This document shows, one piece after another, positions 3,012 to 63,454 of a stretch of 64,000 nucleotides of DNA. The stretch covers positions 1,736,001-1,800,000 of the forward strand of contig NC_067208.1 of the NCBI RefSeq assembly GCF_026262505.1. The letters run 5' to 3'. Source of the DNA: Trichomonas vaginalis G3 (taxonomy: Eukaryota > Parabasalia > Trichomonadida > Trichomonadidae). A model generated the notes under the pieces. It worked only from the letters and a program-made list of their open reading frames with translations. It was not told the origin of the DNA and searched no databases. The stretch's first letter is position 1. Every line of letters starts with the position of its first letter. The position numbers were made by a program, and so were the translations under genes.

Positions 3012-3151
3012 TTATATATAATAATAAAAATGTTTTTACCCGAAAAGTGACAGAAAAGTGACAAAACATGAAAACATATATAATTTGTGAAAAGCTACTG
3101 GAAGACCCGTATATAAGAACTTCATTTATACTAAACATCTTCAGGGCTAGA

Positions 3152-3204
3152 AGGCACGAAGTGCCTGGAAGCCCCACTTCCTTTTTTTTTTTTTTTTTTT
3201 TTTT
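3152..3204. repeat. GC hairpin followed by T23 run at E0 border
   Basis: AGGCACGAAGTGCCT (3152-3166) is a perfect 6-bp stem with a GAA triloop, the same design as the dispersed micro-palindromes elsewhere in the window. Immediately beyond it, 3182-3204 is 23 consecutive T. DNA to the right changes to AT-rich non-coding sequence, so this is the likely border of E0. Confidence 0.6.
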
Positions 3205-4276: not shown

Positions 4277-4894
4277 ATGAATCCTTACAAAGGGTATGTC
4301 GATCGAATTTATCTAATTGGTATTTCCAATCAGATTGAAGAAGGTAAAATGACATGGGAAGAAGCTTGCACCCATGTTCCCATCGCCCCAACCCTTCAAT
4401 CAAATGATTTCAAATATTTAGATGTTTCAAAATCTTTTTTACAAAATCAATTTAGCTTACAGAATATCCCATTGCCTAAAGGCAAGAAAGGTCGTAGGGT
4501 CAATCCCTACGACCAAATCAAAGCTCTTGCTGTGATACATGACCACTGGGCCTTTCCCTGTGGTCAAACAAAACAATGGAAACGTTTGAAATTACAACAA
4601 ATTGATGTATCTTATAGAGAAGTACGCAGATACTTCAAAGAAAATCATTTCACCAAGACGCGATTAGAGCATGCCGGGCCAGAAACAGCAGTAAGATATT
4701 GGGCTCTTTCACCCAATCTTATCTGGCACGCAGATGTTCATTATTTTAGGGGTGTTCGTGGCCAGTATATTTATGGCATAATCGACGATTTTAGCCGCAA
4801 AGTCCTAGCGTGTATACAAATACCATATATGCTGGCAGCGACGACAGCGAACGTTGCGGCTTCCGCCTTCATTGAATTTGGCGCCCCTTATTGT
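4277..4894 (+). pseudogene. DDE integrase/transposase-like gene, 5' part, interrupted by E1
   Basis: The ATG at 4277 opens 206 codons that end at the Maverick insertion. Residues 100-150 form a helix-turn-helix-like region; then comes the first catalytic Asp in WHADVHYF, followed by YGIIDDFSRK, typical of the retroviral integrase (rve) fold. The rest of the gene lies at 28069-28425 and carries the second Asp and the Glu. The frame is continuous if the element and one copy of ATTGT are removed, so the target gene was intact before insertion. The element family of this gene is not recognised, and no flanking inverted repeats are seen. Confidence 0.8.
4890..4894. repeat. Target site duplication ATTGT (left copy; right copy 28064-28068)
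   Basis: ATTGT directly precedes the left terminal AGTTAGT and directly follows the right terminal ACTAACT. Mavericks make 5-6 bp duplications and have AG/CT termini, so the borders are well defined. Reading the interrupted gene across a single copy keeps the frame. Confidence 0.92.
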
Positions 4895-6256: not shown

Positions 6257-6481
6257 TTACCCCATATTAAAATCATCTCTCTTCAATATTATCTCATAAA
6301 AGTTCTCGTTACTGGAGAAAGTCAATGAAACATAAACATTCTCACGGGCTTCACCCTCACCGCTTTGCGGTCTATCTAACTTCTTTCTTATCTCATCTAT
6401 TCGCTTCAAAATGTCTGAACAATTGCTAACATCTTCTACAACAGTTATTTCATCATGAACGACCTTTAAGAACAAGCTCAT
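6257..6481 (-). CDS. Hypothetical small protein (74 aa) with an in-frame micro-palindrome
   Basis: No family is recognised. The first 40 residues are charged and helical. Then comes a segment encoded by the GC hairpin CCGCTTTGCGG (6360-6370) and neighbouring CGGGCTTCACCC, giving RPQSGEGEAR. The micro-palindrome seems to have been inserted in frame. The gene abuts its neighbours on both sides (0-bp gaps), so the three genes 5729-7363 are probably expressed together. Confidence 0.5.
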   Translation of the reverse strand: MSLFLKVVHDEITVVEDVSNCSDILKRIDEIRKKLDRPQSGEGEARENVYVSLTFSSNENFYEIILKRDDFNMG

Positions 6482-10082: not shown

Positions 10083-10724
10083 ATGAGAAGCAAATCCATC
10101 TTAGCTGGTGCCGTTAATGTTCCAATTGAACCAACATCAAATGTTGACTCACGAACGACAAACAATATTGTCATAAAGAACTATAGTTCGGAGTGTTTGA
10201 AAGAAAAAGAACCAGATCTTAAGTCGGGACCTTCGGTCTTGGCGCATGGCGCCGTGAATTTAAACACAGCTTCAAACGCTAACGCTACATCAGATGTTAA
10301 GTTAGAGTATCCACCACTGGACCAAGTTCTTTCAAGAGAAGCCAACGACAACCCTTACACAAATGTTCAAACAAATCCTTCAGATAACGTAGACCATTAC
10401 CTTCTTCAGTTATACCAAACAATTTTACTCAAAGACGATAAGAAGCTTTTGGTAAATCTTATAAGCAAGAACCAAATAATTCTAACAAAGGAGGACCTTG
10501 AAAATGTTATATCACGAATAACAGGAAAGCAATGTGTCATTGACTATCTCGACCCTGAAATCGAATGCTGTGGTCAAACTCCACTATTCATGAAAATAGG
10601 TAACATCCGCATCATTGAAACACCAGGAACTACAGGAGTTGAGTTTAAGTATAAATATTCGAATGAATATACAAAACTTTCAACAGAATATAAGCTTTGT
10701 TTGAAATATGTTTTAGTAAATTAA
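10083..10724 (+). CDS. Conserved Maverick protein (213 aa), E2 counterpart at 48776
   Basis: The C-terminal ~95 residues (from about 120) match the C-terminus of the E2 protein at 48776-49477. Shared points are a helical start, ILTKEDLENVI / ILPYESLIHII, a central Cys-Cys-Gly (ECCGQT / SCCGTV) and a Tyr-rich end. The N-terminal 100 residues are low-complexity and contain an in-frame double hairpin (10228-10253) encoding GPSVLAHGAV. Function is unknown. Conservation next to vertex and fibre genes in both elements suggests a virion or assembly role. Confidence 0.6.
   Translation: MRSKSILAGAVNVPIEPTSNVDSRTTNNIVIKNYSSECLKEKEPDLKSGPSVLAHGAVNLNTASNANATSDVKLEYPPLDQVLSREANDNPYTNVQTNPSDNVDHYLLQLYQTILLKDDKKLLVNLISKNQIILTKEDLENVISRITGKQCVIDYLDPEIECCGQTPLFMKIGNIRIIETPGTTGVEFKYKYSNEYTKLSTEYKLCLKYVLVN
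10228..10253. repeat. Double-hairpin micro-palindrome inside coding sequence
   Basis: GACC-TTC-GGTC (10228-10238) is followed by GGCGC-ATG-GCGCC (10241-10253). The same composite, with a TTT loop in the second hairpin, recurs 3' of the same gene at 10734-10759. The length keeps the reading frame open. Confidence 0.85.
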
Positions 10725-10733
10725 AGCAGTCAG

Positions 10734-10759
10734 GACCTTCGGTCTTGGCGCTTTGCGCC
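10734..10759. repeat. Double-hairpin micro-palindrome, intergenic copy
   Basis: GACC-TTC-GGTC then GGCGC-TTT-GCGCC sits between convergent gene ends. It matches the in-gene copy at 10228-10253 except in the second triloop, which changes ATG to TTT while the stems stay perfect. Confidence 0.85.
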
Positions 10760-11770: not shown

Positions 11771-14660
11771 ATGACTATTGCTGCATATGCGTATGAAACA
11801 AATGAAGCAAGAAGAGCACATGAACTAGTAAACGAAAACTCAACTTTAACCATTGAAGGCAATGATTTAGTCATTGACGATGGAAAAACTAAAAAAGTCA
11901 TTGATTTCGATACTTTTAACACTTATGACCCATTCATTACAACAAGCAAGGTTCCCATCATAAATGATGGAACGGTGCAATATATAAATTCTACAGTAGA
12001 TGCCTCATTAGTGAAAGTACTGAATGTTCTCATTGAATTGTTAAAGAGCTTTCGATTTGACGACAACATTAAATGCCTAAAGAATTTAGTCATGAATGAG
12101 AAACAAATTCTCGGCGTTGCTGGTAGCAGTAATGATGTACACCTTATGACATTAGAATATTATAACGAACATAAAGATGAACTGAAAGGAGAGAAGGGTG
12201 ACACCGGACCACAAGGAATACAAGGAATACAAGGAATACAAGGACCTCAAGGCGAAAACGGTTTGGATGGAAAGGATGGAAAGGATGGAAAGGATGGAAA
12301 AACTGCTAAATCATGGATATGGGACCTTATAAATACTGGTTTAACAGCTGCTTCATATGGAGTTCTTCAATACCAAATCGGAAAGATATGGGCAGTACTT
12401 GGTGAAGAAGCTTTAGATGACGTTAAAAATGCTTTGAACTTCATTTCAAATGGTTCGGATACTATTAAAACTTTATCTGGTTGGATGCAAGAAACAAGGA
12501 GTCAAATAGATACTGTAAGACGTATAGCAAACAATGCACGTACGGGATTGGATACTTTACGAGAAGCACAAAATACACTAAAGGAAGCAAATGATATTCT
12601 TGGCTCAGTATCAGACATGCATGAAGATTGGCTTAAAGGTATTGACAAATCTTTTAAAAAATCACAGTCAGTCTATTGCTGACTACAAGAAAAGTATAGA
12701 TTTTTTACATAGTGCTATGGACGTACATGATGGAAGCATAAGGAACTTACTTAATGCTAACAATAACTTACCAGGAACTATTAAAGCATTTATAAAGTCC
12801 TTTGTAAAACCTGGTGCTCTAACATTTAGGTCTTTGAGAGCAAGAGCATTGAAGTCAAGAGATGCAGAAACTCCAGAAGAACCACCAAAACCAACAGCTA
12901 ATGAAATATTGTTCGAATATTTTCCAAGGTACTCTGTTCTCATTGCATACATTCAAGAAATACTTAAGAAAGCAGACTTGACTTTAGGAGATGATGAAAG
13001 TTCTGTATATCTTTCGTTCCAGTTTCAAATAGCAGAACTTTTGAGACAGATATGCTTAATGTATGACAACATCTCTGATTTCACAAGATATGATGACGAC
13101 CATGACCCCGAACACGGTGAAGAAGAAGTTTTACAAACATCCATTAAGACAGGAAAGGTTTTAACACAAAGTCTCATTATTGACACCAAAGATGGCGAAG
13201 TGGACGTTCTTCAAGAGCTGAAGAAAAATACTTCTTCGGGAGGTGGTGGTAGGCATGAACTTGAAATAAATGAGATAGAAGAGAAATTAGCCGAAAAAGC
13301 AGATAAAGAACATAAACACAATATCTCCGATATAAATGAACTTCAAGCTACATTAAATAGTAAAGCAGATAAAAACCATGTTCATTATATAACTTCAGAT
13401 GAACAGATTATAACGGACTACCATGGATATTTAACACAGGATGAAAAAGTGAAGACGGAAGATGTTAATGAAAGAAGATATAAATACATTCGTGCTAAAG
13501 GTTATGACATAAGCTGTACTGTACATTATGACACAGGTAAAGCGCTAGAAGCATTTAGTTATAACGATGAAATTTATGCCTCTACTTTCAATGTTAACGG
13601 TGTATTAGTTGAACCAAGATTTACTTTGAGAGTTAAGGCAAAAATAACTTTTGAAGATGCTATTAAAAGTAGAGCCGACAAAGATGAACTTGACGCAACG
13701 AACAAAGTTTTGAAATCTCATAAACACAATATCTCCGATATAAATGAACTTCAAGCTACATTAAATAGTAAAGCCGACAAAAATCATACACATAAATCCT
13801 TCACTACTGTTAGAGCAGACGACATAATAATGAACTATGATTTGGGTTCAAGTGCACCTTTAGAGAATCCGAGTACAAGCGTAAAAGATACTCTTAACAA
13901 TTTAGATAAGAGTTGCAGGAATATCGAAGATCATGCCAGAAACTTTGAAGCATATGAACTACCATCAATGTTAGACAGTAAAGCCGACAAAAATCATACA
14001 CATAAATCCTTCACTACTGTTAGAGCAGACGACATAATATTGAACTATGATTTGGGTTCAAGTGCACCTTTAGAGAATCCGAGTACAAGCGTAAAAGATA
14101 CTCTTAACAATTTAGATAAGAGTTGCAGGAATATCGAAGATCATGCCAGAAACTTTGAAGCATATGAACTACCCGCAATGTTAGACAAGAAAGCAGACAA
14201 AACAGAGCTTCAAACATTAAAGACTCAGATTCTTGAAACATTATATCCTATAGGCTCTATTTATACGTCAATGAACTCAACAAATCCAGCAACAGTTCTG
14301 GGTTTTGGTACATGGCAGCAGATTGTAGACAAATTCTTATACTGTGCTAACTCTTCAAAGCAAACAGGTGGTTCAAAGAAAATTTTAGAAGCAAACCTTC
14401 CACCGCACACTCATTCAGGAACTACAAACTTTTCTGGCGACCATAGTCACTCATTAAGAGACCACCCATTATACAACTCAGACTATGAAGCTGGCCATGA
14501 CGTTTTATCTCCATCTTATAACAATTCAGCAAAAAAGACTTTTCGACCAACTGAACCAGGAGGAAATCATGTCCATACTTTCACAACAAATCCAACAGGC
14601 TCGGGTGCAGATTACATGCCACCATTTGTGACTGTATTTGCATGGTACCGCGTTCAATGA
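11771..14660 (+). pseudogene. Phage-like fibre gene with collagen-like stalk, frameshifted near 12,655
   Basis: The first frame (11771-12682) gives an anchor of about 140 residues, a collagen-like Gly-X-Y stretch near residues 139-175 (GEKGDTGPQG, then GKDGKDGKDG) and helical stalk. At the A6 run near 12,655 the frame shifts, and the rest continues in frame to 14660. That part holds KADK...HKHNISDINELQATLNS repeats, a duplicated 70-residue unit and a phage-tail-like tip (YPIGSIYTSMNSTNP, FGTWQQIVDKFLYCAN, GGNHVHTF). Such tips occur in bacteriophage fibres and baseplates and bind receptors. One indel at a homopolymer could be real or an assembly error. Confidence 0.8.
13767..14186 (+). repeat. 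210-bp tandem duplication in the fibre stalk
   Basis: Two almost identical 210-bp units (13767-13976 and 13977-14186) encode 70 residues each, starting SKADKNHTHKSFTTVRADDI. Near-identity indicates recent duplication, which would lengthen the fibre. A separate block of about 66 bp near 13311 and 13719 is also duplicated. Confidence 0.88.
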
Positions 14661-15806: not shown

Positions 15807-15886
15807 ACTTTTTCATTAGATGTAAATCAGACATGAATGAGAACAGTCATGTATTATTAATGGTACCATTTATTTTAACATAAAGA

Positions 15887-15910
15887 CGCAAAGCGGCGAG
15901 GACGAAGTCC
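15887..15910. repeat. GC micro-palindromes CGC-AAA-GCG and GGAC-GAA-GTCC
   Basis: Two triloop hairpins lie between genes (15887-15895 and 15900-15910) and are followed by ATG. The stretch GAGGACGAAGTCCATG recurs inside the polymerase gene at about 19512-19527. Confidence 0.75.
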
Positions 15911-17514: not shown

Positions 17515-18342
17515 ATGTCAACATCAGAGAACACAACAACTGCTATCGTTCATGAAGCCATTAATGAAGAATACGAGTACATACAGTATAACAAACAGTT
17601 ACGTCTCATTCGTTCAGTCAAAGATGACATGTACCAAATGCAAAGTATAATGAATGCTCTTCGTTCTACAAAGCAAGCATATCATTGGTTTGAAAACCAA
17701 CAGACAAAAGAACTTTTAGAAGAATTTCCTCATATGATTGCTTCCCTCGGAAAACCGAGAGAAGAGATTCCGTACGAAAATCGCAAGAATTTGGCTCCTG
17801 GTTTGAAAGGTTATTATGTTCATAGACTTTTAGTAAATGCTGTAGCAATGTGGGCTTCACCTCGTTATGCTTGTTATATTTTCATGATGTTAGATGAACT
17901 ATATAAAGCAGAACGTGGAGAGATGGAAAAGAAACTTCAAGCAAAAGATGAAGTCATTGAATCCAAAGACAAAAGCATACAGAAAAGAATACCGCGTTCA
18001 GTACCAAAAGGAAAGGAAAAGAGTTATAAGTATATGATATATACTGAAGAGTTGGAGAAAGAAGAAGACAGAGATATGGTTATGTTGCATTTAGTCAGAA
18101 GAAACAACAAAAGCTTTTATGACCTTGCTAAGATTTACAAATCTGACAGAAACTGGTTCTATCGTGAAAACTTACCGATTTCAATGACACCGAATGAGCA
18201 AATAAAGGAAATTGTCAAAAATACTCTTCCTCAAACACACTATGACATCAAAGGTTGCACAATACTTACATTCAAAGAAGACTTACCATTACTGAAGGAA
18301 AAAATAACAGAATATTTCGATAACTTCAAAGAGGAAGAATGA
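17515..18342 (+). CDS. KilA-N domain protein with DUF3627-like C-terminus (275 aa)
   Basis: The KilA-N core lies at about residues 60-130 (KQAYHWFENQQTKELLEEF, then GYYVHRLLVNAVAMWASPRY). A Lys/Glu coiled coil follows, then a C-terminal domain (DLAKIYKSDRNWFYRENLPI, LPQTHYDIKGCTIL) like those in KilA-N proteins of baculo-, pox- and other large DNA viruses. The upstream TTG codon could extend the frame, but the first ATG is at 17515 after a long T-rich promoter. The E2 protein at 52862 is about 90% identical, unlike the other E1/E2 pairs. A DNA-binding regulatory role is inferred. Confidence 0.8.
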   Translation: MSTSENTTTAIVHEAINEEYEYIQYNKQLRLIRSVKDDMYQMQSIMNALRSTKQAYHWFENQQTKELLEEFPHMIASLGKPREEIPYENRKNLAPGLKGYYVHRLLVNAVAMWASPRYACYIFMMLDELYKAERGEMEKKLQAKDEVIESKDKSIQKRIPRSVPKGKEKSYKYMIYTEELEKEEDRDMVMLHLVRRNNKSFYDLAKIYKSDRNWFYRENLPISMTPNEQIKEIVKNTLPQTHYDIKGCTILTFKEDLPLLKEKITEYFDNFKEEE

Positions 18343-18640
18343 AAACTTACCGATTTCAATGAAAAACATTAACTTTTTGACGAAGTGAAGATTTGCACTT
18401 TGTCAAAATTTAATGAAAACTTACCGATTTCAATGAAAAACATTAACTTTTTGACGAAGTGAAGATTTGCACTTTGTCAAAATTTAATGAAAACTTACCG
18501 ATTTCAATGAAAAACATTAACTTTTTGACGAAGTGAAGATTTGCACTTTGTCAAAATTTAATGAAAAACATTAACTTTTTGACGAAGTGAAGATTTGCAC
18601 TTTGTCAAAATTTAATGAAAAACATTAACGTAAACATTAA
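18341..18640. repeat. 74-bp tandem repeats containing a hairpin and a copied gene fragment
   Basis: Full units start at 18341, 18415 and 18489, then a 54-bp short unit at 18563 and a partial at 18617. Each has TTTTGACGAAGTG...CACTTTGTCAAAA (13-bp stem, one mismatch). The first 22 bp of the full unit are identical to codons inside the preceding KilA-N gene (18166-18187). The first unit begins at the gene's stop codon. Confidence 0.88.
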
Positions 18641-19331: not shown

Positions 19332-22300
19332 ATGTATCGGAAGTTGTCTAAGTTAGAACACTCGGAAATAAAACAACTTCTTACAGAAGCTAATATAGAT
19401 GTTGCAAAGCATTACGCAACAAACAAAAAGGCACTCGCTGACATCCTCAATGACTACAATGGTGAAATAAGTTATGATAGAATTCATGAGTTCATAAAGC
19501 CACAACGCGGTGAGGACGAAGTCCATGCAAGAACTTTTCCTTTAAATGACGTTGCTATTGACTTATATCATAGACGTTCAATACCTCATGAAGTAAGGCG
19601 TGAGATGTTTGACATAACAAATGCGAACGTTGGTGAAACAAGAAGAAGAGACGACACACTGAAACAACAGAGAAGAGAGATGTTTAAAAATGCTATAGAA
19701 CAAGTTCGCAAAGCTAACGATGTCATTCGTTCCATTGACGACAAACCAAAAGAAGGTGAGAGATGGTTAAAGAAAGATGAAGAGAATAGGAAGAGAAATG
19801 TGAAGTCAGGCAATAGACTCATTGACTTTAACATCGAAGCTTTAGATGAACCAAACAGAGACTACTTACACAAACATTTCGGTAAGGTTTTCATGAGACT
19901 CTTAGAGAAAATTAAAATAAACTCACAACAGAGATGGATGGTATGTTATAAACTTGGTGGAAAGTATGAATGTTCTACGTTAAACCTCAATAATATTGGA
20001 ACATTACTACATCAGCTCTTGAAGGAGAACTTTATATCAGAGATAGAAGCAAATGCTGCAGGTATTGTTGAAATGCACTATGACTTCTTCTTGACAAACA
20101 TAAAGAATCTTACTGAAATAAAGATGTATGATTTAACTGAATATGAAGGCTTAACGATGTCAGATGTAAAGAAAGGCAAACCAAAAAAGAGACCATATAG
20201 AGATGAAAGCACACTGACAGAAAGACAGAAAAGATTATTGAACAGACTTAAACAAACAGGAGATAAACAAGATATAGATGACTTCTGGAATGAAATCCTT
20301 GGTGAAAAGAAGTTTTATAAGAAGAGAAGCGGTCAGTTCTGGAAGTATCTTTGCACATTACCTATAAATCTTGAGCGCTACCAAATCTTCAATGAACTGA
20401 ACAAAAGAACTGCAACACTTATGACAGAGGACAATTGTTTCGTTTATGCTTGCATTCAGGCTGGAGTAAATGAAGAAACTATTGACCACATGAGAGAAGT
20501 CATTCGTGTTAGAGACTTTCCTCAAAGTAAAGTACAAGAAATTTCTGACGCAACAGGTATAGCATTTAATGTTACCATTGGTTACTTCAATGACTCAAGA
20601 CATAATGAAATAAAGAGATACATACCAAAAGAATGTGAAACTGTTCGAACTATTGACTTACTTCTTGTTGAAGACCACTACATGCTAAATGAAAGATTAC
20701 CAATGACAACATATTTCATTCGCAACTATATAGAAATCTTGAAGGAGTGTGGTGGAATGAACATTGAGAAACAGATGAAGATTTATACAAAGAGAGAAGA
20801 TAAATATGTAGTTCGCATGGATAGAACAACACCGCTATGGGATGTTATGAAAACATTGTGGGAGTGCAAATATTTCGAACCTATTTCTTATGGAGAACTT
20901 TTCACATATACGACTGACTTATATAAACAGAACCTTGCACCATTTAAAGATTTGACATATGCTCCAAAGTATTGTGTACAACTGAAGAAGAAAGCCGAGT
21001 CAAAAGAAGTAAATAAAAATAAGTGCAAGTTCATTCCTGAGCACGTTTTCTTTGCTGACTTTGAGTGTAGCACAGACGGCTTTCATAAAGCTTTTAACAT
21101 ATGTTATGACAGTGAAGATGGTTCAGTGAGTGAAAGCATTTGGGGTCAAACTGTGCAACAGAATTTTTGGAACGACTTCCTGACAAGAGTTTAATATATT
21201 TCCATAACCTCAGTTATGATATAAACTTCATCTTAAGACACATGACAGAAGTGAAAGGAACTCCATCATTAAAGGTTCACGAACAATGCAAATAACTGGC
21301 TTATATAAAGGAAGGGCAATTATTATAAAAGACTCTTACAGTGTTATAAATAAGAAGCTTAAACTATTTCCTGCTATGTTTAACTTACAAACAGGACCGA
21401 AAGAAGTATTTCCATATAACTACTACAGCAGTGTTTTGTTAGCAAATGACAACAGAACTGGTGTCATTTCTGAAGCATGTAAGTTTATCCGGGATGCAGA
21501 TACATTCATGAAAAACATAGATTCCATCAAAGGTTGCAGAATAGATGAAAACCACTTCGACTTAGAAAAATATAGCACATTTTATTGCAAACAAGATGTA
21601 AGAATTTTAAGAGAAGGTTTTGTTAAGTTCCGCAATGACATATTGAAAGAATTTGATTTAAACGTTTATGACTACGTTAGTATTTGTTCAATTGCTAACA
21701 AATTGTTTGAGAACAGAGTATACTTCCCGAATGGAAATCTTTATGACCTCTCAAATAAACCAAGAGAATTTATTTCGAGATGCATTCAAGGTGGAAGATG
21801 TATGCTGTCAGATAACATGAAACAAAAGAGCGAAAAGAAACTCATTGCTGACTTCGACGCTGTTTCATTATATCCATCCGCTATAGCAAGACTTTATACT
21901 TTAGAAGGAATTCCAAAAGTATTGAAGGATGAGATGTTAAGCACAGAGTATCTCATGAGACATTTATTCAACGACGACCAAAAGGAACCCATTGGTGAAA
22001 AGTTTATGTCTGGCTTCTTTGTTCTCATTAAGATAACAGAGATTGGAATACATAGACACTTTCCTTTAATAGTTTGTGACCCTGAACTAAATCCAGAACT
22101 TAACGTTCCCAGAAGTTCAAACACTTGCTGTTTAATGTATGTTGACCATATAACATTACAAGACCTCATAAAATATCAAGGTGTCAAATGTGAAGTGTTG
22201 CAAGGATACTATTACGATGGAAACAGAGATATTAGAATAAGAGATGAAGTAAAGAAGTTGTTTGAGTTAAGGTTAAAGTATAAGAAAGAAGGAAATCCTT

Positions 22301-23112
22301 TGCAAGAAAATATAAAGCTCATTCTGAACAGTATTTATGGCAAAACTATTCTATCTCCTATTGAGTCAAAAATAACCATAGTAGATGACAAAGATGCTAT
22401 AAGATATGCCATCAGAAACTACAACCATATAGTGAAATTCGAAGGTTTGGATGGTTCAGATAAAACTATTTTCAAGCTAACGAAAAGCATTTGCAGACAC
22501 TTTAACTTCTGTCCACTTGGTGTTAATATTCTATCTATGTCGAAGAGAATAATGTGTGAAGTATTCTGTACTGCTGAAGACTTAGGAATGGACATCTTTT
22601 ATAGCGATACCGACAGTATGCATCTCTACAATGAAGATATCCCTCGTTTAGCTGAAGAGTTTGAGAAACGTTATGGAAGAGTTCTCATTGGTAAAAACCT
22701 TGGTCAATTTCATAGCGACTTTGCAGAAATAACACCTGGAAAACAAAGTTTAGCATACAAGTCAATATTTTGTGGAAAGAAGACTTACATAGACTTACTC
22801 ACTAACGATTTAAATGAAGTTGCATTCCATGCACGTTGCAAAGGTGTCAAACAAGACGTCCTTGCTTTAACAGCTAATGAAATGTTTCCTGAAGCTATAC
22901 AATGCTATTACAATGAAGATAAAGGTTTAATGGTTCCGCAAGGAAAATTTGACAAAGACTCTGAGTTCAGTGTTATGAAACTTTACAAAGCACTTCATGA
23001 TGGTCAAGAGATTGGATTTGACTTATGTAAGTCTTCTACTCCTTGCTTTGCTGAAAAGTTTAACTTTTCTATTCAGACTAAGACTTCATTCATAAGAAAG
23101 CTTAAGTTCTGA
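19332..23112 (+). pseudogene. polB: Protein-primed-type family B DNA polymerase, broken by two frameshifts
   Basis: Three open segments join in order: 19332-21194, a short one near 21195-21285 in another frame, and 21286-23112. The first ~350 residues match the separate E2 protein at 62342 and may include the terminal-protein/OTU-like part (DNCFVYACIQAG). Exonuclease motif I is in FFADFECSTD, and motif II (HNLSYDINFIL) lies in the middle segment. The polymerase motifs are intact: A DAVSLYPSA, B LILNSIYGK, C YSDTDSM. It would copy the element from primed ends. Breaks lie near 21,194 and 21,285. A micro-palindrome (19514-19524) is in frame near residue 62. Confidence 0.9.
19514..19524. repeat. 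In-frame micro-palindrome GGAC-GAA-GTCC in polymerase gene
   Basis: It encodes part of RGEDEVHA. With flanks it shares about 16 bp with the intergenic copy at 15898-15913. Confidence 0.75.
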
Positions 23113-23182
23113 GGTCATGAATGAGAAAAATAATAAGGTCATTTATTTTTGTCAGCAATGAGGTCATTCGTGATAAAAATAA

Positions 23183-23194
23183 GCCGCTAGCGGC
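23183..23194. repeat. Micro-palindrome GCCGCTAGCGGC between convergent genes
   Basis: It is a perfect 12-bp palindrome followed by AAGGCGAAGCCCATG. The whole 29-bp unit (23181-23209) is present exactly, inverted, in E2 at 56028-56056. GGTCATT is repeated several times around it (23113-23216). Confidence 0.85.
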
Positions 23195-23216
23195 AAGGCG
23201 AAGCCCATGTGGTCAT

Positions 23217-24074
23217 TTACAATACTGCGATGGTAGAGTTTAAGAGTTGTGCGTCAATGTAGAGACAGTCCTTATGGTCTGGAGGTAAGAACACTGGGCA
23301 GTTATGGTCATAAGTGGAGAACATGTCTATCCAAAACTCACGATTGAAGCCAGTTAATTTATAGTATTTAGGGTTAGGAAGTGGTGAAGTTCTTGTATGA
23401 CCAATGAACTCATTTTCAACTCCCTTACTTAAGTTTGAATATAATATAGCTTGCTTTCTATCCCAAATGCCTGGTGTTACAATCTTTGAAAATTCATTTT
23501 TCCTCGGAAGCATTGCATCATAATTGAAAACATTCTTGAAGTCTTCATTGGGTTCAGAGATTTGAAACCTTATACGTAATGGATTTTCTTTCTCTTTAGC
23601 TACTTCATTGAATGGTGAATATATAACAAACTGACAGTCATGAGTTCCATCTTCATTTTCATTAAATTCATAATGAAAGTCTATAAGTTGTGGCTGACTA
23701 CCTTCTTCTTTCAGTTGTGCAAGAAACTCACGTAAAGGCTGTAAAGTTTGTACTTCAATGTTGAACTTTTTCTCGAACATCTCATTAAATGAAATCATAC
23801 ATTGCAACAATATTGTATCGTCTTTAAAGTATTTGTATATGTGAATGTTTTGGGCGCTTAAAGACTGTTCGTCATTTTCTATCTCGACTTGAAGTATAAA
23901 GTCAACCTTTCTGAAAGCACGTGTTATATACATAGATGTTATGCCAATGTACTTCTCTTCATTTATGTTCACAATCCAGTCTGTTGGAAACTTAAACGTT
24001 ACTCTGTTCCCCTTTATTTTGACGTCAGGGTTTTCACTACTGAACGCAACAGTTAAAGGTATTTGTCTATACAT
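23217..24074 (-). CDS. Candidate minor capsid/vertex-like protein (285 aa)
   Basis: Residues 24-33 (VTFKFPTDWI) align in form with YPRQW at 6482-7363 and YPLRW at 577-1425. The C-terminal half has GIWDRKQAILYSNLS, again like the W..ENIVI.SSIS pattern. No transmembrane segment is seen. The gene is convergent with the polymerase and shares an operon-like arrangement with the Lys-rich 24099 gene. A third vertex-like or capsid-associated protein is inferred; it could equally be a tail or cement protein. Confidence 0.45.
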   Translation of the reverse strand: MYRQIPLTVAFSSENPDVKIKGNRVTFKFPTDWIVNINEEKYIGITSMYITRAFRKVDFILQVEIENDEQSLSAQNIHIYKYFKDDTILLQCMISFNEMFEKKFNIEVQTLQPLREFLAQLKEEGSQPQLIDFHYEFNENEDGTHDCQFVIYSPFNEVAKEKENPLRIRFQISEPNEDFKNVFNYDAMLPRKNEFSKIVTPGIWDRKQAILYSNLSKGVENEFIGHTRTSPLPNPKYYKLTGFNREFWIDMFSTYDHNCPVFLPPDHKDCLYIDAQLLNSTIAVL

Positions 24075-24098: not shown

Positions 24099-24371
24099 TT
24101 ACTCTTTCTTTGCTTCAGCTTCTTTAGCTTTTTGTTCTTCCTTTGCTTTTGCTTCTTCTCTAGCTTTCTTCGCCAGCAAACGTGGGTTCTTTTGTCTTCC
24201 AGCAGCTAATGCAGCAAGTTGTTTTTCACTAAGTTTTCTCTTTGGTCTCTCTGGCTTTTGTTCTTGTTTTTGTTCCTTCAGTTCGGATAAAATTTGCTCG
24301 CGAATTTCTTTCTTCAATGCTTCAACATCTATGACCCCTTGGGTCTTGTCCATATGACTTGTCTGAGTCAT
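24099..24371 (-). CDS. Lys/Glu/Ala-rich charged protein (about 90 aa)
   Basis: I start it at the ATG at 24371, which follows a TTTTTATCTGCAG spacer like other promoters in the element. The protein is almost entirely charged helix: EQILSELKEQKQEQKPERPKR, then AKKAREEAKAKEEQKAKEAEAKKE in shorter blocks. The middle has RKLSEKQLAALAAGRQKNPR, a short basic motif often seen in DNA-binding virion proteins. Condensing DNA inside the capsid is possible but unproven. Confidence 0.5.
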   Translation of the reverse strand: MTQTSHMDKTQGVIDVEALKKEIREQILSELKEQKQEQKPERPKRKLSEKQLAALAAGRQKNPRLLAKKAREEAKAKEEQKAKEAEAKKE

Positions 24372-24416: not shown

Positions 24417-24851
24417 ATGAGCTTGTCAAAATCAGAGCGAGAGTCTATTATATTAAATGACGCAAGAGGAATACAACATCCTTTCTATTACGTAAGTCAG
24501 AGTAAAGATGGTAAAATATACGTAAGAAAAAGAAAGGTTCCATTAGCGAATGCAGAAAGCGACAACATTAAGGTGTATGGCAAGGATGAAGTCCACGAAG
24601 CCCATATAAAACCTTCTGTTCAAACTGAAAAGTCAATAGAACCAGAAGAAAAGAAGCCAGATGTTCTTTCAATAACGAACCAAGAGCTTATTGCAAAGTT
24701 CGTGAATTTCATTGAAAAGCAAACCGAGTCAAAGAACCCTGACCCGCCAGTGAAAGAAGTTGAGACAAAAGAGAATGTACAGTTCATTGAAAATGTCAAG
24801 AAACAACTTCCACCACGAATGCCAAGAAGAAGAGTGAGAATAATGAAGTAA
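24417..24851 (+). CDS. Hypothetical basic protein (144 aa) with FYY...KDGK motif
   Basis: The N-terminal motif HPFYYVSQSKDGKIYVRKRKVPL resembles GFYIHTMKDGRVQFRKIKQPL in the 78-aa protein at 26981, so the two share a small domain. The middle is acidic and the end strongly basic (PPRMPRRRVRIMK). Bases 24580-24605 hold a degenerate micro-palindrome in frame. It precedes the capsid gene by 27 bp on the same strand, suggesting a virion role. Confidence 0.5.
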   Translation: MSLSKSERESIILNDARGIQHPFYYVSQSKDGKIYVRKRKVPLANAESDNIKVYGKDEVHEAHIKPSVQTEKSIEPEEKKPDVLSITNQELIAKFVNFIEKQTESKNPDPPVKEVETKENVQFIENVKKQLPPRMPRRRVRIMK

Positions 24852-50735: not shown

Positions 50736-52653
50736 ATGATTAAACAACAGCAACCACAGACCATTACATACGCCATATATGCATATAATTCAAAGACGGC
50801 AGAACAAACGCAAATGTTGAAATATGGAGATTTGGAGATAGTATTGAAAAATGACCATTTCGAATTCGTTTGCAAAGGTGGTGCAGTGATATCAAATATA
50901 AAAGAAATTTTATTTATGAATTCAAAAATTAAAGGAATAACGGATGATATAACATCAATTCCACCAGAAGAACAAAGATATTACGCATTAAATGCATTTC
51001 CTAAAGTTTTGAAGATTGGAAGATTTAATTTAAATGAGGAATTCATAGAAGGTTTCCTAAATGACATAATGAAGAAAGCAGATAAGGAATACGTTCATAC
51101 TGAGTTCGCATATGTGGCAAGTGTGTTAGTGAAGAAGGCATATAAGGAATATGTGGATGAAAAAGATAATGAAATTATAAAAAGGGTTGAATGGTACCAT
51201 GAACGGACATCGAAGATTTTAGAAGGTAAAGCCAATACAGGGTGGGTTTCAGGATGTTTAGACCTTAAAGCGGATAAAACTTATGTTAACGATGAGTTAA
51301 ATAAGAAGGCAGATAAAACATATGTTAACGATGAGTTAAATAAGAAGTCAGATAAGGAATATGTTAACGATGAGTTAAATAAGAAAGCAGATAAGGAATA
51401 TGTTAACGATGAGTTAGGGAAGAAGGCAGATAAAACATATGTTAACGATGAGTTAAATAAGAAGGTAGATAAGGAATATGTTAACGATGAGTTAGCAAAG
51501 AAAGCAGATAAGGAATACGTTAACGATGAGTTAAATAAGAAGTCAGATAAAACATATGTTAACGATGAGTTAGCAAAGAAAGCAGATAAGGAATATGTTA
51601 ACGATGAGTTAGCAAAGAAAGCAGATATATCATTTGTTAACGAAATATACCAAAGTTTAGTTGGAACAAAAAATATTGAAACTATTGTTGGTGACTTTTC
51701 TGTCAATGAAGAAAATAAATATTTTAGATGGCAGTTTGTACAGTCCTTAAGAAATGGTATACGGTATAAACTCATTCCGAAAAATAACAATGAAATGTAT
51801 GTAAGTTATAAAAAGAACGATGGTACACAAGTTAAAGTTCCATTAGACAACAACTGCTACTTAAACTTATATGGAGACGAACAAAAGAAATATTTAAGAG
51901 TTTATGAAATGGTAGATATGACATTGTCTAACGTAGCTCCAGCACCATACTATTATGACTATGGTGTTGACGCACGTGTAGACCCAAAAAAGCAAACATT
52001 ATATTTAGAATATTATAGATATAAAAGATATAATGCAATAGAAAAAACGAGAATGGTATACTATTATGAAGATGACAGAAATAAATATTATAGTCAAGAT
52101 TTTACCTACCCTGAAAACATAAGATTATATTATAAAAAATATTCTGACACAAACCAGAAGAAACCTGAAATAGTTACACTATATTTTAAGTTCAAAAGAG
52201 ACAATCCTATAATATCTCATATGTTTGATTTAATGAACCCAGTAGGTTCTATTTATACATCTATGGATGCAAGAGGTCCTCAAGTAATGTTTGGTGTTGG
52301 TGCATGGGAACAAATAGTTGACAGGTTTTTGTATTGTGCAAACTCTTCAAAGGAAACAGGGGGAAGTAAAACGATTACAGGTGAAAATTTACCTGCACAC
52401 AGTCACTACATATTTAAGCACATCTCAAGCGGGTTGGCATAAGCATAGATATTGGGATTGGTCAGGAATGACAAAAGGTAAAGGATATGATGTTAAAGAC
52501 AACGTTAAGTTTGCTATAGATTGTTACTGGAGTAACACTGAGGGAGGAGGAAACCATACACATTTCGTTTCAGGATATACGCAAACAACGGGACAAAGTA
52601 AAGAATACATGCCACCTTACATGACAGTTTACGCATGGTATAGAGTTCAATGA
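50736..52653 (+). pseudogene. Phage-like fibre gene with KADK repeats, frameshifted near 52,410
   Basis: The N-terminal anchor (YAIYAYNSKTAEQTQMLKYG) resembles the E1 fibre start. Then come nine copies of a 13-residue unit (KADKTYVNDELNK and variants), a beta-rich shaft, and a tip (MNPVGSIYTSMDARGPQ, VGAWEQIVDRFLYCAN, GGNHTHFVSGY) like the E1 tip. The frame breaks in the tip near 52,400-52,420 and continues in another frame to 52653. From about 51,640 the codon choice looks more like E1, suggesting a swapped tip. Confidence 0.8.
51267..51641 (+). repeat. 39-bp coding repeat, nine copies
   Basis: Each unit encodes (K)(A/S/V)DK(T/E)YVNDEL(N/A/G)K. TATGTTAACGATGAGTTA is almost invariant. The repeat would form a trimeric coiled stalk, and copy number could change by slippage. 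Confidence 0.9.
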
Positions 52654-52807: not shown

Positions 52808-52861
52808 TCATTCTCTCTTCGTTAATGTTGTTGTGACTTCTTCATTAATGTTGTTGTGACT

Positions 52862-53704
52862 TCATTCTTCCTCTTTGAAGTTATCGAAATATTCTGTTAT
52901 TTTTTCCTTCAGTAATGGCAAATCTTCTTTGAATGTAAGTATTGTGCAACCTTTAATATCATAGTGTGTTTGAGGTAAAGTATCTTGAACTATTTGTTTA
53001 ACTTGTTCATTTGGGGTCATTGAAATCGGTAAGTTTTCACGATAGAACCAGTTTCTGTCAGATTTGTAAATCTTAGCTAAGTCGTAAAAGCTTTTGTTGT
53101 TTCTTCTGACTAAATGCAACATAACCATATCTCTATCTTCTTCTTTCTCCATCTCTTCAGCGTAAATCATATACTTATAGTTCTTTTCCTTTCCTTTTGG
53201 TACCGAACGTGGTATTCTTTTCTGTATGTTTTTGTCTTTTGCTTCAATGACTTCATCTTTTGCATGAAGTTTCTTTTCCATCTCTTCACGTTCTTGTCTA
53301 TGAATTTCATCTAACATCATGAAAATATAACAAGCATAGCGAGGTGAAGCCCACATTGCAACAGCATTTACAAGAAGTCTATGAACATAATATCCTTTCA
53401 AACCAGGAGCCAAATTCTTGCGATTTTCGTACGGAATCTCTACCCTCGGTTTTCCGAGGGAAGCAAACATATGAGGAAATTCTTCTAAAAGTTCTTTTGT
53501 CTGTTGGTTTTCAAACCAATGGTATGCTTGCTTTGTAGAACGAAGAGCATTCAAAATACTTTGCATTTGGTACATGTCATCTTTGACCGAACGAATGAGA
53601 CGGAGTTGTTTGTTAAACTGTATGTACTCGTATTCTTCATTTATAGCTTCATGAACGATAACTGTTGTTGTGTTCTCTGTTGTTGTGTTCTCTGTTGTTG
53701 ACAT
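52862..53704 (-). CDS. KilA-N domain protein with DUF3627-like C-terminus (280 aa)
   Basis: About 90% identical to the E1 protein at 17515, with a duplicated TTENT block at the N-terminus. The KilA-N core (GYYVHRLLVNAVAMWASPRY) and the C-terminal domain (RNNKSFYDLAKIYKSDRNWF) are intact. Flanking non-coding DNA also matches E1, which is not true for other gene pairs. I start it at the ATG at 53704; the upstream TTG is less likely. It is probably a DNA-binding regulator. Confidence 0.8.
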   Translation of the reverse strand: MSTTENTTTENTTTVIVHEAINEEYEYIQFNKQLRLIRSVKDDMYQMQSILNALRSTKQAYHWFENQQTKELLEEFPHMFASLGKPRVEIPYENRKNLAPGLKGYYVHRLLVNAVAMWASPRYACYIFMMLDEIHRQEREEMEKKLHAKDEVIEAKDKNIQKRIPRSVPKGKEKNYKYMIYAEEMEKEEDRDMVMLHLVRRNNKSFYDLAKIYKSDRNWFYRENLPISMTPNEQVKQIVQDTLPQTHYDIKGCTILTFKEDLPLLKEKITEYFDNFKEEE

Positions 53705-56027: not shown

Positions 56028-56056
56028 CATGGGCTTCGCCTTGCCGCTAGCGGCTT
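56028..56056. repeat. Micro-palindrome unit, exact inverse of 23181-23209
   Basis: It contains GCCGCTAGCGGC (56043-56054) preceded by CATGGGCTTCGCCTT. The 29 bp are identical in inverse orientation to the E1 copy, showing recent movement or exchange between elements. Confidence 0.88.
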
Positions 56057-56456: not shown

Positions 56457-56484
56457 GAGACTTTGTCTCCGGACTCTTTGAGTC
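56457..56484. repeat. Double-hairpin micro-palindrome
   Basis: GAGAC-TTT-GTCTC (56457-56469) is followed by GACTC-TTT-GAGTC (56472-56484). Both stems are perfect with TTT loops. It is intergenic. GGACTC-AAA-GAGTCC inside the polymerase gene (61516) is a close relative. Confidence 0.88.
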
Positions 56485-58679: not shown

Positions 58680-61311
58680 ATTTTATTAAAAATAAAATTT
58701 TAAATTCATGACTCAACCCCTACATTTTTAAATTGTATTAAATAAATGGCATACAACATCCATTTTCACAACATACAGCCTTAGTGTGTGCTCCTGTTAA
58801 TGCAGTCTTACCGATTGTTAAGCGAGTCATTGACCCGTTTTTAAGTTGTAAATTAATATTCTGACCATCAAATATCACTTTATCATTTATTATATCCAAA
58901 TAATTTTTAGGTGTTAATTGTTTATTTTGTCGTAAACTAACACCTTTCATTTTTTGTGCAATCTTTTTAAAATCACTTCCATCAATTGAACCGTTGAATG
59001 ATGTATAACACTTGGGCATAAAGCAACCATGTTATCACCTTGTTTCTCAATTGCTAAACCCAATAACTTCTTCTCATGTGCTTTTTCTTCAGCTTTATTC
59101 TTTAATTTAGGTTTAAATTTCTCATCAAAACAGAAGAAATCAAATGGTGCGAATTTGAAAATGTTTTTATCATAAAATTGTTTATCGGTAACAATTGCTT
59201 GAAATGCTTGAGTGTTAGGAAGATTTGGGTCGCCAGCGATTGCCCAATAAGATGAATCAGTATCACCTTCAATGAAATGAAAACGATTAACATCCAAGCA
59301 TTTATACATAAAATCATAAATGAAAACCAAATACCAGTATTTTGCGTTATCTAAAGTAAAAAATGCCTCTTGTAAACATGTATCACATCTATAAAATCTA
59401 TCTTTGAGCATCACTTGATACGTATCCTCTCCTATTTCTCTTATGTTTTTAAACTTATTTGACATACATGCAACGCGTGCCTTCTGTGCATTCATTATTT
59501 TAGTCTTTGCGTAATTTTGTGTATTCATTGCATCGTAACCATATGATCCATTAAGTGAAATTTTGCAAAATAAACTTTTTCCTTTATTTCCTTCTAATTC
59601 AGCCTTTTGTCTTTCGTTCATAAATTCGTTCGCAAATTCATTAAAACAAGTGTTTTTAGTAAATGTTAAAATTGATTGAATGTCATCAATGATAAAATGA
59701 AATCTGTCTATTAGATACCATAGATAATAAGAAGAAAATGGTTGATATTGGTTGTGTGTTGATGCTAACTGAGTTAATTTTCTCTGTTTCTGGTCAACTG
59801 GTAAATTGTTTGATTTCATGTAATTATACATAAAACTACCAATTGTTTTTTCATCTGTGATAATATCTAAGTTTCTTATTATCGGTAAAAAGTTTATGTA
59901 ATCATTAATGTATTTTTCATCAATGTGACCCTTTACTTCAGCCACGAATAAAGTATTTTTCTTTCTAATTATTCCCAGTGCTTTTGCTTTCTTTGTTGCT
60001 GTATCACAAATGATAACTCCATTCAATCTTCCCGGCATATACATTTTATGGTCAGTATATTGAATAAAATCATGGGGATTAGATGAAAATGATGAAGGAT
60101 ATAATGAATTAAAATCAACACCAACGAAATGAGTCATGATGTTGGAAGTGTCCTCATTTGATACAGTTTTAGTTTCTGGACTATATGAAAGTTTATTAAT
60201 GTGCGTGATTCCTTTAAGATTTACTCTATGTTGAACATTTGATAACCCACCAGTAATTCCATTACGGAGAATGTGATAAGCTTCAACTGAATCTAAAGTC
60301 ATTGGTAAATTATTTTTTAATGCGTAATTTCTTAAATTGATTCTTAAACGTTGAACATCTTCATCTTTGTTTGATTTTACGACATTACAATAACAACACA
60401 TTAACTGACAATTTTCTTTGGTATGTGGTTTTTCATTATCGATTCTATCCAATGTTGGTTTATTTGCATATGTAAACGCTTTACCACACATTTTGCATTT
60501 AGATGAAAGGATTAAATCGTGATAGTATTGAAAATCATCCATTGAAACATTATTTTTAGTATTCCTTTCTGCTTTTTCATCTTGTTTCTTATATGATTCA
60601 ATTTTATATTTCCAATACTTTTTCGTTAATTCAAAACTTGATTCTATCTCTTCCTCAGGATATTTTTCATTAGGATTAAAGTCTTTATATGCTAAAGCGT
60701 AACGAATCATTGAAGCATTCGATGATAAAGAAAGATTATGAAGCATATCAATTTTATAAACAAATGTTTCTTCAATAATTTTATCAATTGGGTCAATCAT
60801 AATTTCAACATCTTTATTGCAATAATGAATAAAATATTCTAATCTATTCTTAAAATTTTTAGCATCATTGAGATATATTTGATAATCTGAATCGGATATT
60901 GTTTCTTGAGTTAATGCTGAATAAAATGAATCTTGAGTGAATGGTTCCACTTTATATAATTCATCTTCGTAATTCTCCCATGTGATGAATTGATAAGGGA
61001 AAAAGGATTTAACACGTGATTTATTGTTTCCGAAATCTTGAGTGAATTGGTCTAATGTTCCACCCGCTATATAATTTCTGATGTCAATAAATCTTAATTC
61101 ATATGGACAGTTTGTTTTCTTTACAATGATTTGCTTAAATTGAGAAGAAGAACCCAGCATTGATTTTATTTTCCATTTTGCAGTGTTTAAATCACGAAGA
61201 ATTAAATTTAAATCAAACTTTCCCGAATTAAAACCTATGATATTCACTTTATTGAATTCCTCATCTAGAAGTTCTTTAAATGCTTCCTTCTGTTTTTCAT
61301 TTAATGTATGA

Positions 61312-61343
61312 GACAAAGTCCCCACCGTTTGGTCCGTTTGCGG
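61312..61343. repeat. In-frame micro-palindrome cluster, polymerase copy 1
   Basis: GAC-AAA-GTC, ACC-GTTT-GGT and CCG-TTTG-CGG lie in a row and encode the segment around KPQTDQTVGTLSH. Confidence 0.75.
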
Positions 61344-61477
61344 CTTCATTAATTCTTCATATTGTTCAATATTTGATTTAGCAACTAATGAACAGGTTGA
61401 AAATAAAAATTCAATCCAATCAGAGATGAACGAATCACTTGATGTTAAGCAAAAATTCCTCGTAAATGTTTTATCAC

Positions 61478-61540
61478 GGTCTACGACCTCGCCGCTTCGG
61501 TCTGAAAGACCTTCAGGACTCAAAGAGTCCGTTTGCGGCT
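61478..61540. repeat. In-frame micro-palindrome cluster, polymerase copy 2
   Basis: GGTC-TAC-GACC (61478-61488), GGTCT-GAA-AGACC (61499-61511) and GGACTC-AAA-GAGTCC (61516-61530) are three perfect hairpins; GTTTGCGGC follows. Together they encode about 22 residues (KPQTDSLSPEGL, then SDRSGEVVDRD) between the exonuclease motifs, with the frame kept. Confidence 0.9.
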
Positions 61541-62276
61541 TTATTTTGACAGTTGATGATACCATAAATGGTTTTAAGTAAGCGTTCAAAGTTGCACATT
61601 CAGAAAGTTGAAGTTCTTCTTTAGTCTCTAATGTTTCGAAGTCAAAAGTAATATAATATCTTGTTGGTTTATAATATTCCTGCAAATTGTGAGCTAATAG
61701 CCATTGATATATCTTCTGTTTCGTGATATGTGGTGCATATGGTTGTTGTGTGTTTTGCAATTGAACGTCTTGAATTAATCTTCCATTATTTTCTTTACAT
61801 TTCTCACAATGTTTTAAAAATCTTCTTTGGTTTTTCCTTTCTGGGTCATCACGGATAGAATATACTTCTTCTTTGCAAAAGGGGCAAACTTTATAGCCGG
61901 TGAGTGCTTCAACGTCTGTTATTCTGTCAGCGTGAAGTTTTCCACATGGACTCTGTGTTAATAAAATATTTACTGTTTCAAATTCTGGATCTATCATTAT
62001 TGATTCCACTAATGGAAAGTCTACCTTATTTATGTCTACGTCTTCTGGTTGAGGGTCACAATAATAAAAATCAATATTAACGTTTAACATTCTTGCTAAC
62101 CTCTCACTTTCTGATGAAATGTCAAATCCTTCATATGCATCTATGGCTTCATTTAAATAACTTCTACGAGTTTTAGGATTAACACCATCAGGAATGTTAT
62201 AGAAGCGTTTAAATAACCTTCTACCTTCGGCTCTTATTTGATTATCATTCATTTTAGCTGTTCCGTTTTTGTTCAT

Positions 62277-62341
62277 TTATGTAAGAATAAAAAATTAAAA
62301 AATAAATAAAAATAAAGTTTATTTTTTTTTAAAGTCCAGGG
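62277..62341. promoter_or_regulatory. Spacer between polymerase N-terminal gene and polymerase
   Basis: A 65-bp A/T-rich spacer ends in TTTTTTATTCTTACATAAATG, a normal E2 leader. So the polymerase ORF seems to have its own promoter, although E1 has both parts in one frame. Confidence 0.45.
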
Positions 62342-63454
62342 CTAAAGTCCATAAAATGAATTAAGAACACATAAATTTTTATCATCTGCGACGTGACGAA
62401 TACATTTTAATTTACTCAAGAATGCGTACCCTGATACATTAAATCTAATTCCTGTCTTATTTAATTTCACAACTTTGAAAAGGAATGTATGAATAGCTAT
62501 AAAATGATGAGAAGATGTTTTATGGGTTGCTTCCATTTTTTCTGAAATAAATGAATAAATATAATGCTTATACGTTTTCATATCTTTTATATTCTTAATA
62601 ACGAATGGTATAGACCTTTCCACTTCGTCTTCCTTCGGTGCTGTTCTTTCATATGAAACATTATTGGTATCTTCAATAATGAAACCACAATCACATAAAA
62701 TTTTATAGGTTCCAATTGTTTCTTTTGATATTTTATCTAATAAATCAAAAACTTTATCAACACCTGTACATTTATTTAAATAATAATTTGTGTAAATATC
62801 ATGGTCTTCTTTCTTAATCGTATTTGTTGCATATGTTACATTTTTCAGTGCTTTTTTGAATTTTTCAGAATCAAGAGGAGGTGAAAGTAATATACAGGGG
62901 TATTCTTCATCGTCAATAAACTGAAGTTTATGTTTATGAATAAATTTTGTGCCTTCTTCTGAAAGTGTTTCATCTATTTCACCATCTAATAAATTTTTAG
63001 TAGATTCCAAAAAGTAATTTTTATATCTTTCTTCATGAGATTTTTGAACTTCTGATTCTGAAGCTGGGATATTCATTAAACCCTCTACTTCATTCTCATT
63101 ATATTTTTCAACTTCTCTTAATTCCTTAATTTTTTCATCTATTTCATCTCTTATTTTTTCCAGTCTTTCAATTTCATCATATTCATCATCTTTAATCCGT
63201 TCTTCATAATATTCAGGGAAAACATCAGGTTCTTTAGGTTTTTCTTCTTCAGATGTGGGATATAAGAAATTTATAACATCATCTTTATTCATTTTTCCAT
63301 CATAATCTAAATCATTTAATAACTCCGCGAATTTTTGACAATTTCTTAAATAATATTTATTAACTTCATAACTCGCCTCCTCTAATATATCCTTTATTTC
63401 CTCGTTTGTGAATCCCAATTTTTTAACGTCGTTAGTCTTGACACTCATTTTCAT
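62342..63454 (-). CDS. Separate N-terminal (terminal-protein/OTU-like) part of the polymerase (370 aa)
   Basis: The start (FTNEEIKDILEEASYEVNKY, then KFAELLNDLDYDGK) matches the E1 polymerase N-terminus (HSEIKQLLTEANIDVAKHYA, ADILNDYNGE). The C-terminus VADDKNLCVLNSFYGL aligns with E1 MTEDNCFVYACIQAG, a pattern like the start of an OTU cysteine protease domain. The stop comes right after it, at a GGACTTTAG micro-repeat. I use the ATG at 63454; an upstream TTG is possible. It may be the primer protein for replication. The split could be natural or a decay event. Confidence 0.65.
   Translation of the reverse strand: MKMSVKTNDVKKLGFTNEEIKDILEEASYEVNKYYLRNCQKFAELLNDLDYDGKMNKDDVINFLYPTSEEEKPKEPDVFPEYYEERIKDDEYDEIERLEKIRDEIDEKIKELREVEKYNENEVEGLMNIPASESEVQKSHEERYKNYFLESTKNLLDGEIDETLSEEGTKFIHKHKLQFIDDEEYPCILLSPPLDSEKFKKALKNVTYATNTIKKEDHDIYTNYYLNKCTGVDKVFDLLDKISKETIGTYKILCDCGFIIEDTNNVSYERTAPKEDEVERSIPFVIKNIKDMKTYKHYIYSFISEKMEATHKTSSHHFIAIHTFLFKVVKLNKTGIRFNVSGYAFLSKLKCIRHVADDKNLCVLNSFYGL

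Follow-up and report, generated by a model that had tools for sequence, protein, structure and literature searches.

What are the short, GC-rich hairpins that recur along Maverick DNA of Trichomonas vaginalis G3, and how did they come to lie where they do? The window, meaning the whole stretch of 64,000 nt analysed here, spans positions 1736001-1800000 of one contig in the 180.9 Mb genome and carries Maverick genes for DNA polymerase B, an integrase core, an A32-like ATPase and KilA-N, together with tail-fibre-like ORFs. According to the available part of PMC7845603, ~73 Mb of the T. vaginalis genome consists of Mavericks. An earlier note on this DNA took the hairpins to be mobile and, at several sites, to be inserted within genes. 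We conclude that they are very probably separately inserted, non-autonomous mobile micro-elements of T. vaginalis Mavericks, with replication-linked copying as the likeliest mechanism.

A recurrent 26-nt double hairpin

The canonical element is a GC-rich double hairpin of 26 nt, in which a 4-bp stem and a 5-bp stem, each with a 3-nt loop, are separated by 2 nt (4-3-4/2/5-3-5). Its GC content is 0.62-0.73 (n = 10 elements) against 0.316 for the window. The elements and their variants are:

6346-6371, + strand: canonical 26-nt double hairpin with a single mismatch in a stem; C/C flanks; intergenic according to the listed ORFs
10228-10253, + strand: canonical 26-nt element inside ORF 10083-10724
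10734-10759, + strand: canonical 26-nt element, intergenic, directly after the stop of ORF 10083-10724
15885-15910, - strand: canonical 26-nt element lying 3' of the integrase ORF, with a single mismatch in a stem; T/T flanks
19499-19524, - strand: 26-nt element inside ORF 19332-21194, encoding about PQRGEDEVH
23183-23206, - strand: 24-nt variant 3' of the DNA polymerase ORF 21286-23112, within an AT-rich repeat array
24333-24358, - strand: element with a mutated first stem, perfect in locus L007; flanks A/A
24572-24603, - strand: altered 32-nt copy; locus L005 has a perfect 26-nt form at the same site
44468-44493, - strand: canonical 26-nt element inside ORF 44304-44699 (-)
50129-50154, - strand: canonical 26-nt element inside ORF 49974-50711
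56031-56054, + strand: 24-nt variant identical to that at 23183, intergenic; flanks T/T
56457-56484, + strand: 28-nt variant (5-3-5/2/5-3-5), intergenic; flanks T/A
58947-62276, - strand: host ORF of the 61310 and 61478 elements (1109 aa, pPolB-like, DNA polymerase type B organellar and viral family)
61310-61344, + strand: double hairpin plus a 9-nt remnant of a nested element, inside the pPolB-like ORF
61478-61539, + strand: canonical 26-nt element whose second loop carries a nested double hairpin, inside the pPolB-like ORF
61496-61531, + strand: nested 36-nt insert of the 61478 element

The earlier note had listed 14 positions as one kind of element. Twelve are canonical or derived elements, and those at 3152 and 8737 are off-architecture (hairpin-rich stretches of 32 nt at 3143 and 25 nt at 8731). 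Starts were corrected (6360 to 6346, 15887 to 15885, 19514 to 19499, 56043 to 56031 and 61312 to 61310), and the elements at 24333 and 24572 are additional. The rule that stems stay perfect while loops vary holds in part, with stem mismatches in the window copies at 6346, 15885, 19499 and 24333. In-frame insertion within genes was confirmed for ORFs 10083, 49974 and 44304 and for the pPolB-like ORF 58947. The latter is the only polymerase ORF in the window that contains copies (61310 and 61478); at the other polymerase ORF, the copy at 23183 sits 3' of the gene. A penton-like gene, named earlier as a further host, was not identified by a Pfam scan of 27 of the 52 listed ORFs of the window. Stop triplets are absent from 16 of 20 element strands, which is no more than composition predicts (0.70-0.72).

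Such hairpins are enriched over shuffled sequence. Adjacent pairs (stems of at least 4 bp, loops of 3-4, stem GC at least 0.6) occur 6 times in the window, whereas 20 first-order Markov shuffles average 0.05. The 4-3-4/2/5-3-5 design in its two orientations was found at 6 and 5 places versus 0.15 and 0.30 in 100 shuffles. These orientations rank first and joint second (with two other architectures) among 448 nine-base-pair double-hairpin designs, scanned at GC of at least 0.5 with at most one mismatch, a scan in which register shifts share some places; without the GC filter, AT-rich chance pairs swamp the signal.

Fold and length are conserved across sequence families

Ten sites set in one orientation align without gaps across 26 columns; the rows for 19499, 24333, 24572 and 61478 are paralogous copies with intact stems, which favours structure. 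In this alignment 88 of 90 stem cells are paired, and pairing falls to 34-46% when partners are slid out of register. Two-sided changes are present in six of nine stem pairs (reached by 2 of 500 shuffles) and in 19 cells (reached by 0 of 500), and the covariation score is 0.593 versus 0.148. The number of further pair types is not unusual, being matched by 68 of 500 shuffles. A C-G pair closes the loops in 9 of 10 and 10 of 10 rows. The design is common to at least three sequence families distinguished by eye, with second stems GCCGC, GGCGC and GACCC, and the ten-site alignment reveals no end sequence common to them. The covariation shows that fold and length are kept while stem sequence changes. 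When eight stretches are folded as single-strand DNA, the two-hairpin structure is predicted at 10228, 10734 and 50129 and the nested one at 61478; the preferred fold is a different one at 44468 and 15885.

Empty and filled alleles coexist in one genome

Window-type and empty alleles differ by a clean junction and a net 27 nt at four sites, three in genes (10228, 50129 and 44468) and one intergenic (10734). At 10228, 7 of 20 fetched copies are empty, 12 are filled (+27 or +36) and 1 is of another form. Alleles at 10734 are empty (L080, and L069 with one base different), +27 or +36, or miss a longer stretch around the site (7 of 20 copies), a loss that looks like a deletion between repeats. Among 9 fetched copies of 50129, 4 are empty (one with three extra A) and 5 are filled in +24, +27 and +30 forms; among 7 of 44468, 3 lack exactly 27 nt and 4 are filled. 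The third allele at 10228 and 10734 is a 36-nt form in which the first hairpin is swapped for another, with loop AAA versus TTT between the sites. Eight copies are filled at both sites (four 27/27, three 36/36 and one 27/36), a weak linkage that may stem from common descent.

These empty alleles were obtained via protein searches, since two flank DNA searches (best 40 of 971 and best 40 of 957) led to 30 fetched loci each, all of them filled; a gap scan among near-identical loci gave few GC-rich gaps. Hand counts of protein-search rows against the own genome show the same length classes at larger scale. For the 10083 gene, 49 of 150 rows are 639 nt, 37 are 648, 57 are 612 and 7 are other (150 scored of 2347 candidates). 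The 49974 gene has 68 of 150 rows at 732-738 nt and 82 at 705-711 nt (150 scored of 1417). In the 44304 gene, 67 of 150 rows are exactly 27 nt shorter over the full query, and the others are full length, trimmed or slightly changed (150 scored of 1250). Short-class copies retain 96-100% protein identity to the window gene. The ORF at 19332 had the filled length in 150 of 150 scored copies (of 2109 candidates), so the 19499 site gives no information on presence or absence. One gene without an element served as control:

47843-48742, + strand: element-free control gene; scored copies do not vary in internal length

All 131 scored copies of this gene (131 of 1535 candidates) lack internal indels. 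Empty and filled copies thus exist in aligned relatives for 10228, 10734, 50129 and 44468, and for a further insert at locus L122 described below. This comparison and that with shuffled sequence both came out in favour of the earlier reading of the hairpins as mobile, and the evidence that they are mobile insertions is good. Since a single genome holds empty and filled copies whose proteins are about 96-100% identical, movement of such elements would become testable from alleles, and junctions, nesting order and loop inversions could be scored in hundreds of copies.

Protein relatives polarize the change; trichomonads other than T. vaginalis were compared as protein sequences only. In the 10083 gene, the insert columns are empty in 12 of 20 aligned relatives (20 aligned of 106 found), 7 distant relatives of the 20 place 1-6 residues there, in a poorly alignable region, and P0008 has a 12-residue form at the insert. 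The polymerase insert is absent from P0115-P0122, P0124 and P0125; another insert occupies this position in P0114 (74% identity), and the region is not covered by P0123 and P0126. Because these relatives lack the insert, filled sites represent the derived condition in the 10083 gene and in the polymerase. The nine residues of the 49974 gene are absent from P0001 and P0005, and P0003 and P0004 are shorter there. Hairpin insertion also shows one way in which Maverick proteins acquire short inserts, and it is a warning that a segment of 9 or 12 residues in such a protein can be parasitic DNA and not a domain. Other short inserts occur elsewhere in the 10083 gene of P0018, P0058 and P0092, and metagenome relatives of ORF 10083-10724, probably from other trichomonads, have inserts of ~11-12 residues rich in G, R, S and P elsewhere in the gene.

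Junctions and insert lengths

At 8 of 10 sites the bases immediately before and after the 26-mer are identical (P = 0.0011 at a chance of 0.284 per site), and at 10 of 13 once three derived elements are added. The shared base is G, T, A or C depending on the site. The gain at 10228, 10734 and 44468 is readable as 26 nt plus one duplicated base; no clean one-base duplication is seen at 50129 (A/T flanks), 61478 (C/T) or 56457 (T/A), and the +30 form of 50129 (L088, L089) ends in a TTGA repeat. These elements do not qualify as MITEs, taken as having terminal inverted repeats and a target duplication of at least 2 bases: they have no common ends, and one ambiguous base at three of the four 27-nt sites.

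As 27 nt equals nine codons, insertion within a gene lengthens the protein without breaking it. Inserts in the three non-polymerase genes measure 24, 27, 30 and 36 nt. Intergenic gains are 27 nt at 10734 but 37 nt at L122, so the frame-keeping length partly reflects survival, and selection for frame also acts.

Nesting and remodelling in the polymerase gene

Further changes are visible within filled sites. Among 13 fetched copies of 61478, 7 lack the nested 36 nt, one of them (L101) with an inverted loop; 2 (L091, L092) miss 27 nt and keep a 9-nt remnant; 3 are whole; and 1 (L098) has a swapped hairpin. At 61310 the nested element is complete in L098, L100 and L102; the window and several copies keep just the 9-nt remnant, and others have partial forms. 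Full-query rows of the polymerase-gene protein search span 531-621 nt. A loop inverted between TTT and AAA is found in L101, and the +36 forms of 10228 and 10734 differ from each other in the same way. The alleles display nesting, hairpin exchange, loop inversion and, it seems, deletion at microhomology, and for some of these changes we infer the direction; some alleles, namely forms of 61310 and the longer loss at 10734, are probably deletions.

Distribution across the genome

Allowing up to 3 mismatches, one 26-mer of the family matches 528 + 564 places in the genome versus 0 for a reversed control; these counts mostly reflect Maverick copy number, because the 100 listed places are nearly all of two variants (19499-type and 15885-type). 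In 20 fixed-step samples of 1.5 kb, 15 had no match to the window or to L001-L110, L119 had one 163-nt match, and L116, L121, L122 and L127 are Maverick samples. The sole strict pair in these 30 kb belongs to L122, as an insert of 37 nt in intergenic Maverick DNA, and it is missing from the homologous window stretch. A DNA search around it was uninformative on empty sites, as the best 40 of 887 candidates cover nearly the whole query. The 16 non-Maverick samples of 1.5 kb contained no strict pairs, a sample too small to claim absence from host genes.

The 24-nt variant occupies different places, in both orientations, within the AT-rich repeat array (L001, L006 and the window). The AT-rich unit array 3' of the polymerase ORF (23112-23230) itself varies in unit number and orientation among the window, L001, L002 and L006. 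Viral contigs, a set from which records near the own genome were possibly excluded, yielded neither an exact copy of the 26-mer (second loop GTT or TTT) nor any relative of the 10083-gene family alignment or of two proteins from the window.

Routes of movement

The most likely route is copying of single-strand hairpins during Maverick replication, which we infer to be about as probable as all other routes together. Protein-primed strand displacement by Mavericks would expose single strands on which hairpins could fold; a paused 3' end could jump to the hairpin of another copy, often nearby; and the hairpin copy would be fixed at a nick with a one-base overlap. Maverick amplification would then spread filled sites through the genome. 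Once inserted, as seen among the alleles, elements accept others into a loop, swap a hairpin, flip their loops and lose sequence between short repeats. Neither an enzyme nor an intermediate nor a new insertion event was seen.

Transposases seldom leave one-base duplications. Nevertheless, the identical flank bases could be the mark of an endonuclease or transposase that moves the hairpins as DNA and leaves a one-base duplication, for example an HNH-like motif in the Maverick polymerase or a host enzyme, and we consider this unlikely rather than far-fetched. Both orientations relative to genes are found, and the Maverick polymerase (window copy and P0114-P0125) contains Cys, Asp-Arg, His and Asn residues in an HNH-like order, invariant across 11 aligned relatives, with PF01844 scoring E 0.0072, below its cut-off, in the window polymerase. 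Pfam reported no HNH in P0114, P0115 and P0117, however, and the element families have no end sequence in common.

Copying through RNA, by reverse transcription of a folded transcript or its ligation into DNA, would account for the conserved fold and is discussed for Allomyces elements and yeast GC42 in the available parts of PMC2800124 and PMC4478555. It seems improbable here: very few Maverick genes are expressed, according to the available part of PMC7845603, and Pfam reported no reverse transcriptase among 27 of the 52 listed window ORFs. Very improbable is an immobile ancestral cassette lost from many copies by slippage between short repeats. Apparent microhomology deletions do exist (L091 and L092, and the longer loss at 10734), but the empty sites are single clean junctions at all four sites, and the same or near-same sequence recurs at unrelated sites. 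The segment is moreover absent from relatives of the 10083 gene and the polymerase, on which ground pure deletion was rejected as the source of empty alleles. Introns of T. vaginalis are said to be very short, but mini-introns or chance hairpins in AT-rich DNA are a negligible prospect, as no equivalent placement of the four 27-nt inserts runs GT...AG on either strand, intergenic copies exist and enrichment over shuffles rules out chance.

Should single-strand hairpin copying be the route, the loop inversions and nesting may be its traces. Tentatively, and at somewhat less than an even chance, these elements may constitute a class of mobile DNA whose identity lies in fold and length and not in sequence, in which a 26-nt double hairpin spreads in 27-nt steps in virus-like transposons, can therefore enter genes and keeps remodelling viral proteins by nine-residue inserts.

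Relation to known palindromic elements

Mobile double hairpins were known from organelles and in-frame palindromic elements from bacteria; what is new for this element behaviour is the nuclear, virus-like setting and the size rule. Within the Trichomonas, Maverick and Polinton literature, searched by title and abstract opening in a collection that lacks most subscription papers, no description of such hairpin elements was found. The available parts of PMC10120064 and PMC7845603 hold no relevant mention of hairpins or palindromes, and in that of PMC12695648 'palindromic' occurs within a reference title.

The parallels drawn previously to Rickettsia palindromic and double-hairpin elements stand as analogy and not as membership. 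The Maverick elements behave like mitochondrial double-hairpin elements, GC clusters and Rickettsia palindromic elements, and by the tests made they are members of none; nor did those tests give evidence of descent from any of them. Double-hairpin elements of fungal and sponge mitochondria likewise consist of two adjacent hairpins and are scattered in presence, also in genes (PMC2800124, available part). They differ in location, the Maverick elements being nuclear (a 20.3 Mb contig with Maverick genes), 26 nt long and inserted as net 27 nt. Those of Allomyces are said to have no flanking duplications (same source); the Maverick elements show one-base flank identity at 8 of 10 sites. Yeast GC42 resembles them as a GC-rich palindromic cluster in AT-rich DNA with presence/absence variation, and yeast GC clusters undergo loop-biased changes, merger and shuffling. 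GC42 differs, however, in being 42 nt long, mostly intergenic and mitochondrial, with AG or ACT flanking repeats (all PMC4478555, available part); such end repeats are absent from Maverick elements, whose flanks match in one base. In-frame insertion in unrelated genes, seen here, also characterizes Rickettsia palindromic elements, but these are bacterial, ~150 bp long and carry a conserved-peptide ORF (review PMC10969869, available part), whereas the 26-nt Maverick elements add peptides that differ between genes, with none conserved. Short palindromes of Volvox organelles also insert into one another and in both orientations; they differ in being short, chiefly in noncoding organelle DNA, and in having a TAAA or TTTA loop (PMC2670323, available part).

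Other repeats and domains in the window

An integrase-like ORF contains two longer hairpins at 4472-4513 that do not follow the 26-nt design. Maverick ORFs 12591-14660, 50736-52442 and 11771-12682 encode collagen repeats and tail-fibre domains like those of phages (Gp10_C, phage tail repeat). The KilA-N ORF region is duplicated as an inverted repeat (17519-18366 and 52838-53685), 92% alike over 848 nt. At 62310-62350 the GC-rich repeat TCCAGGGC, beside a T run, differs by ~8-16 nt among some copies.
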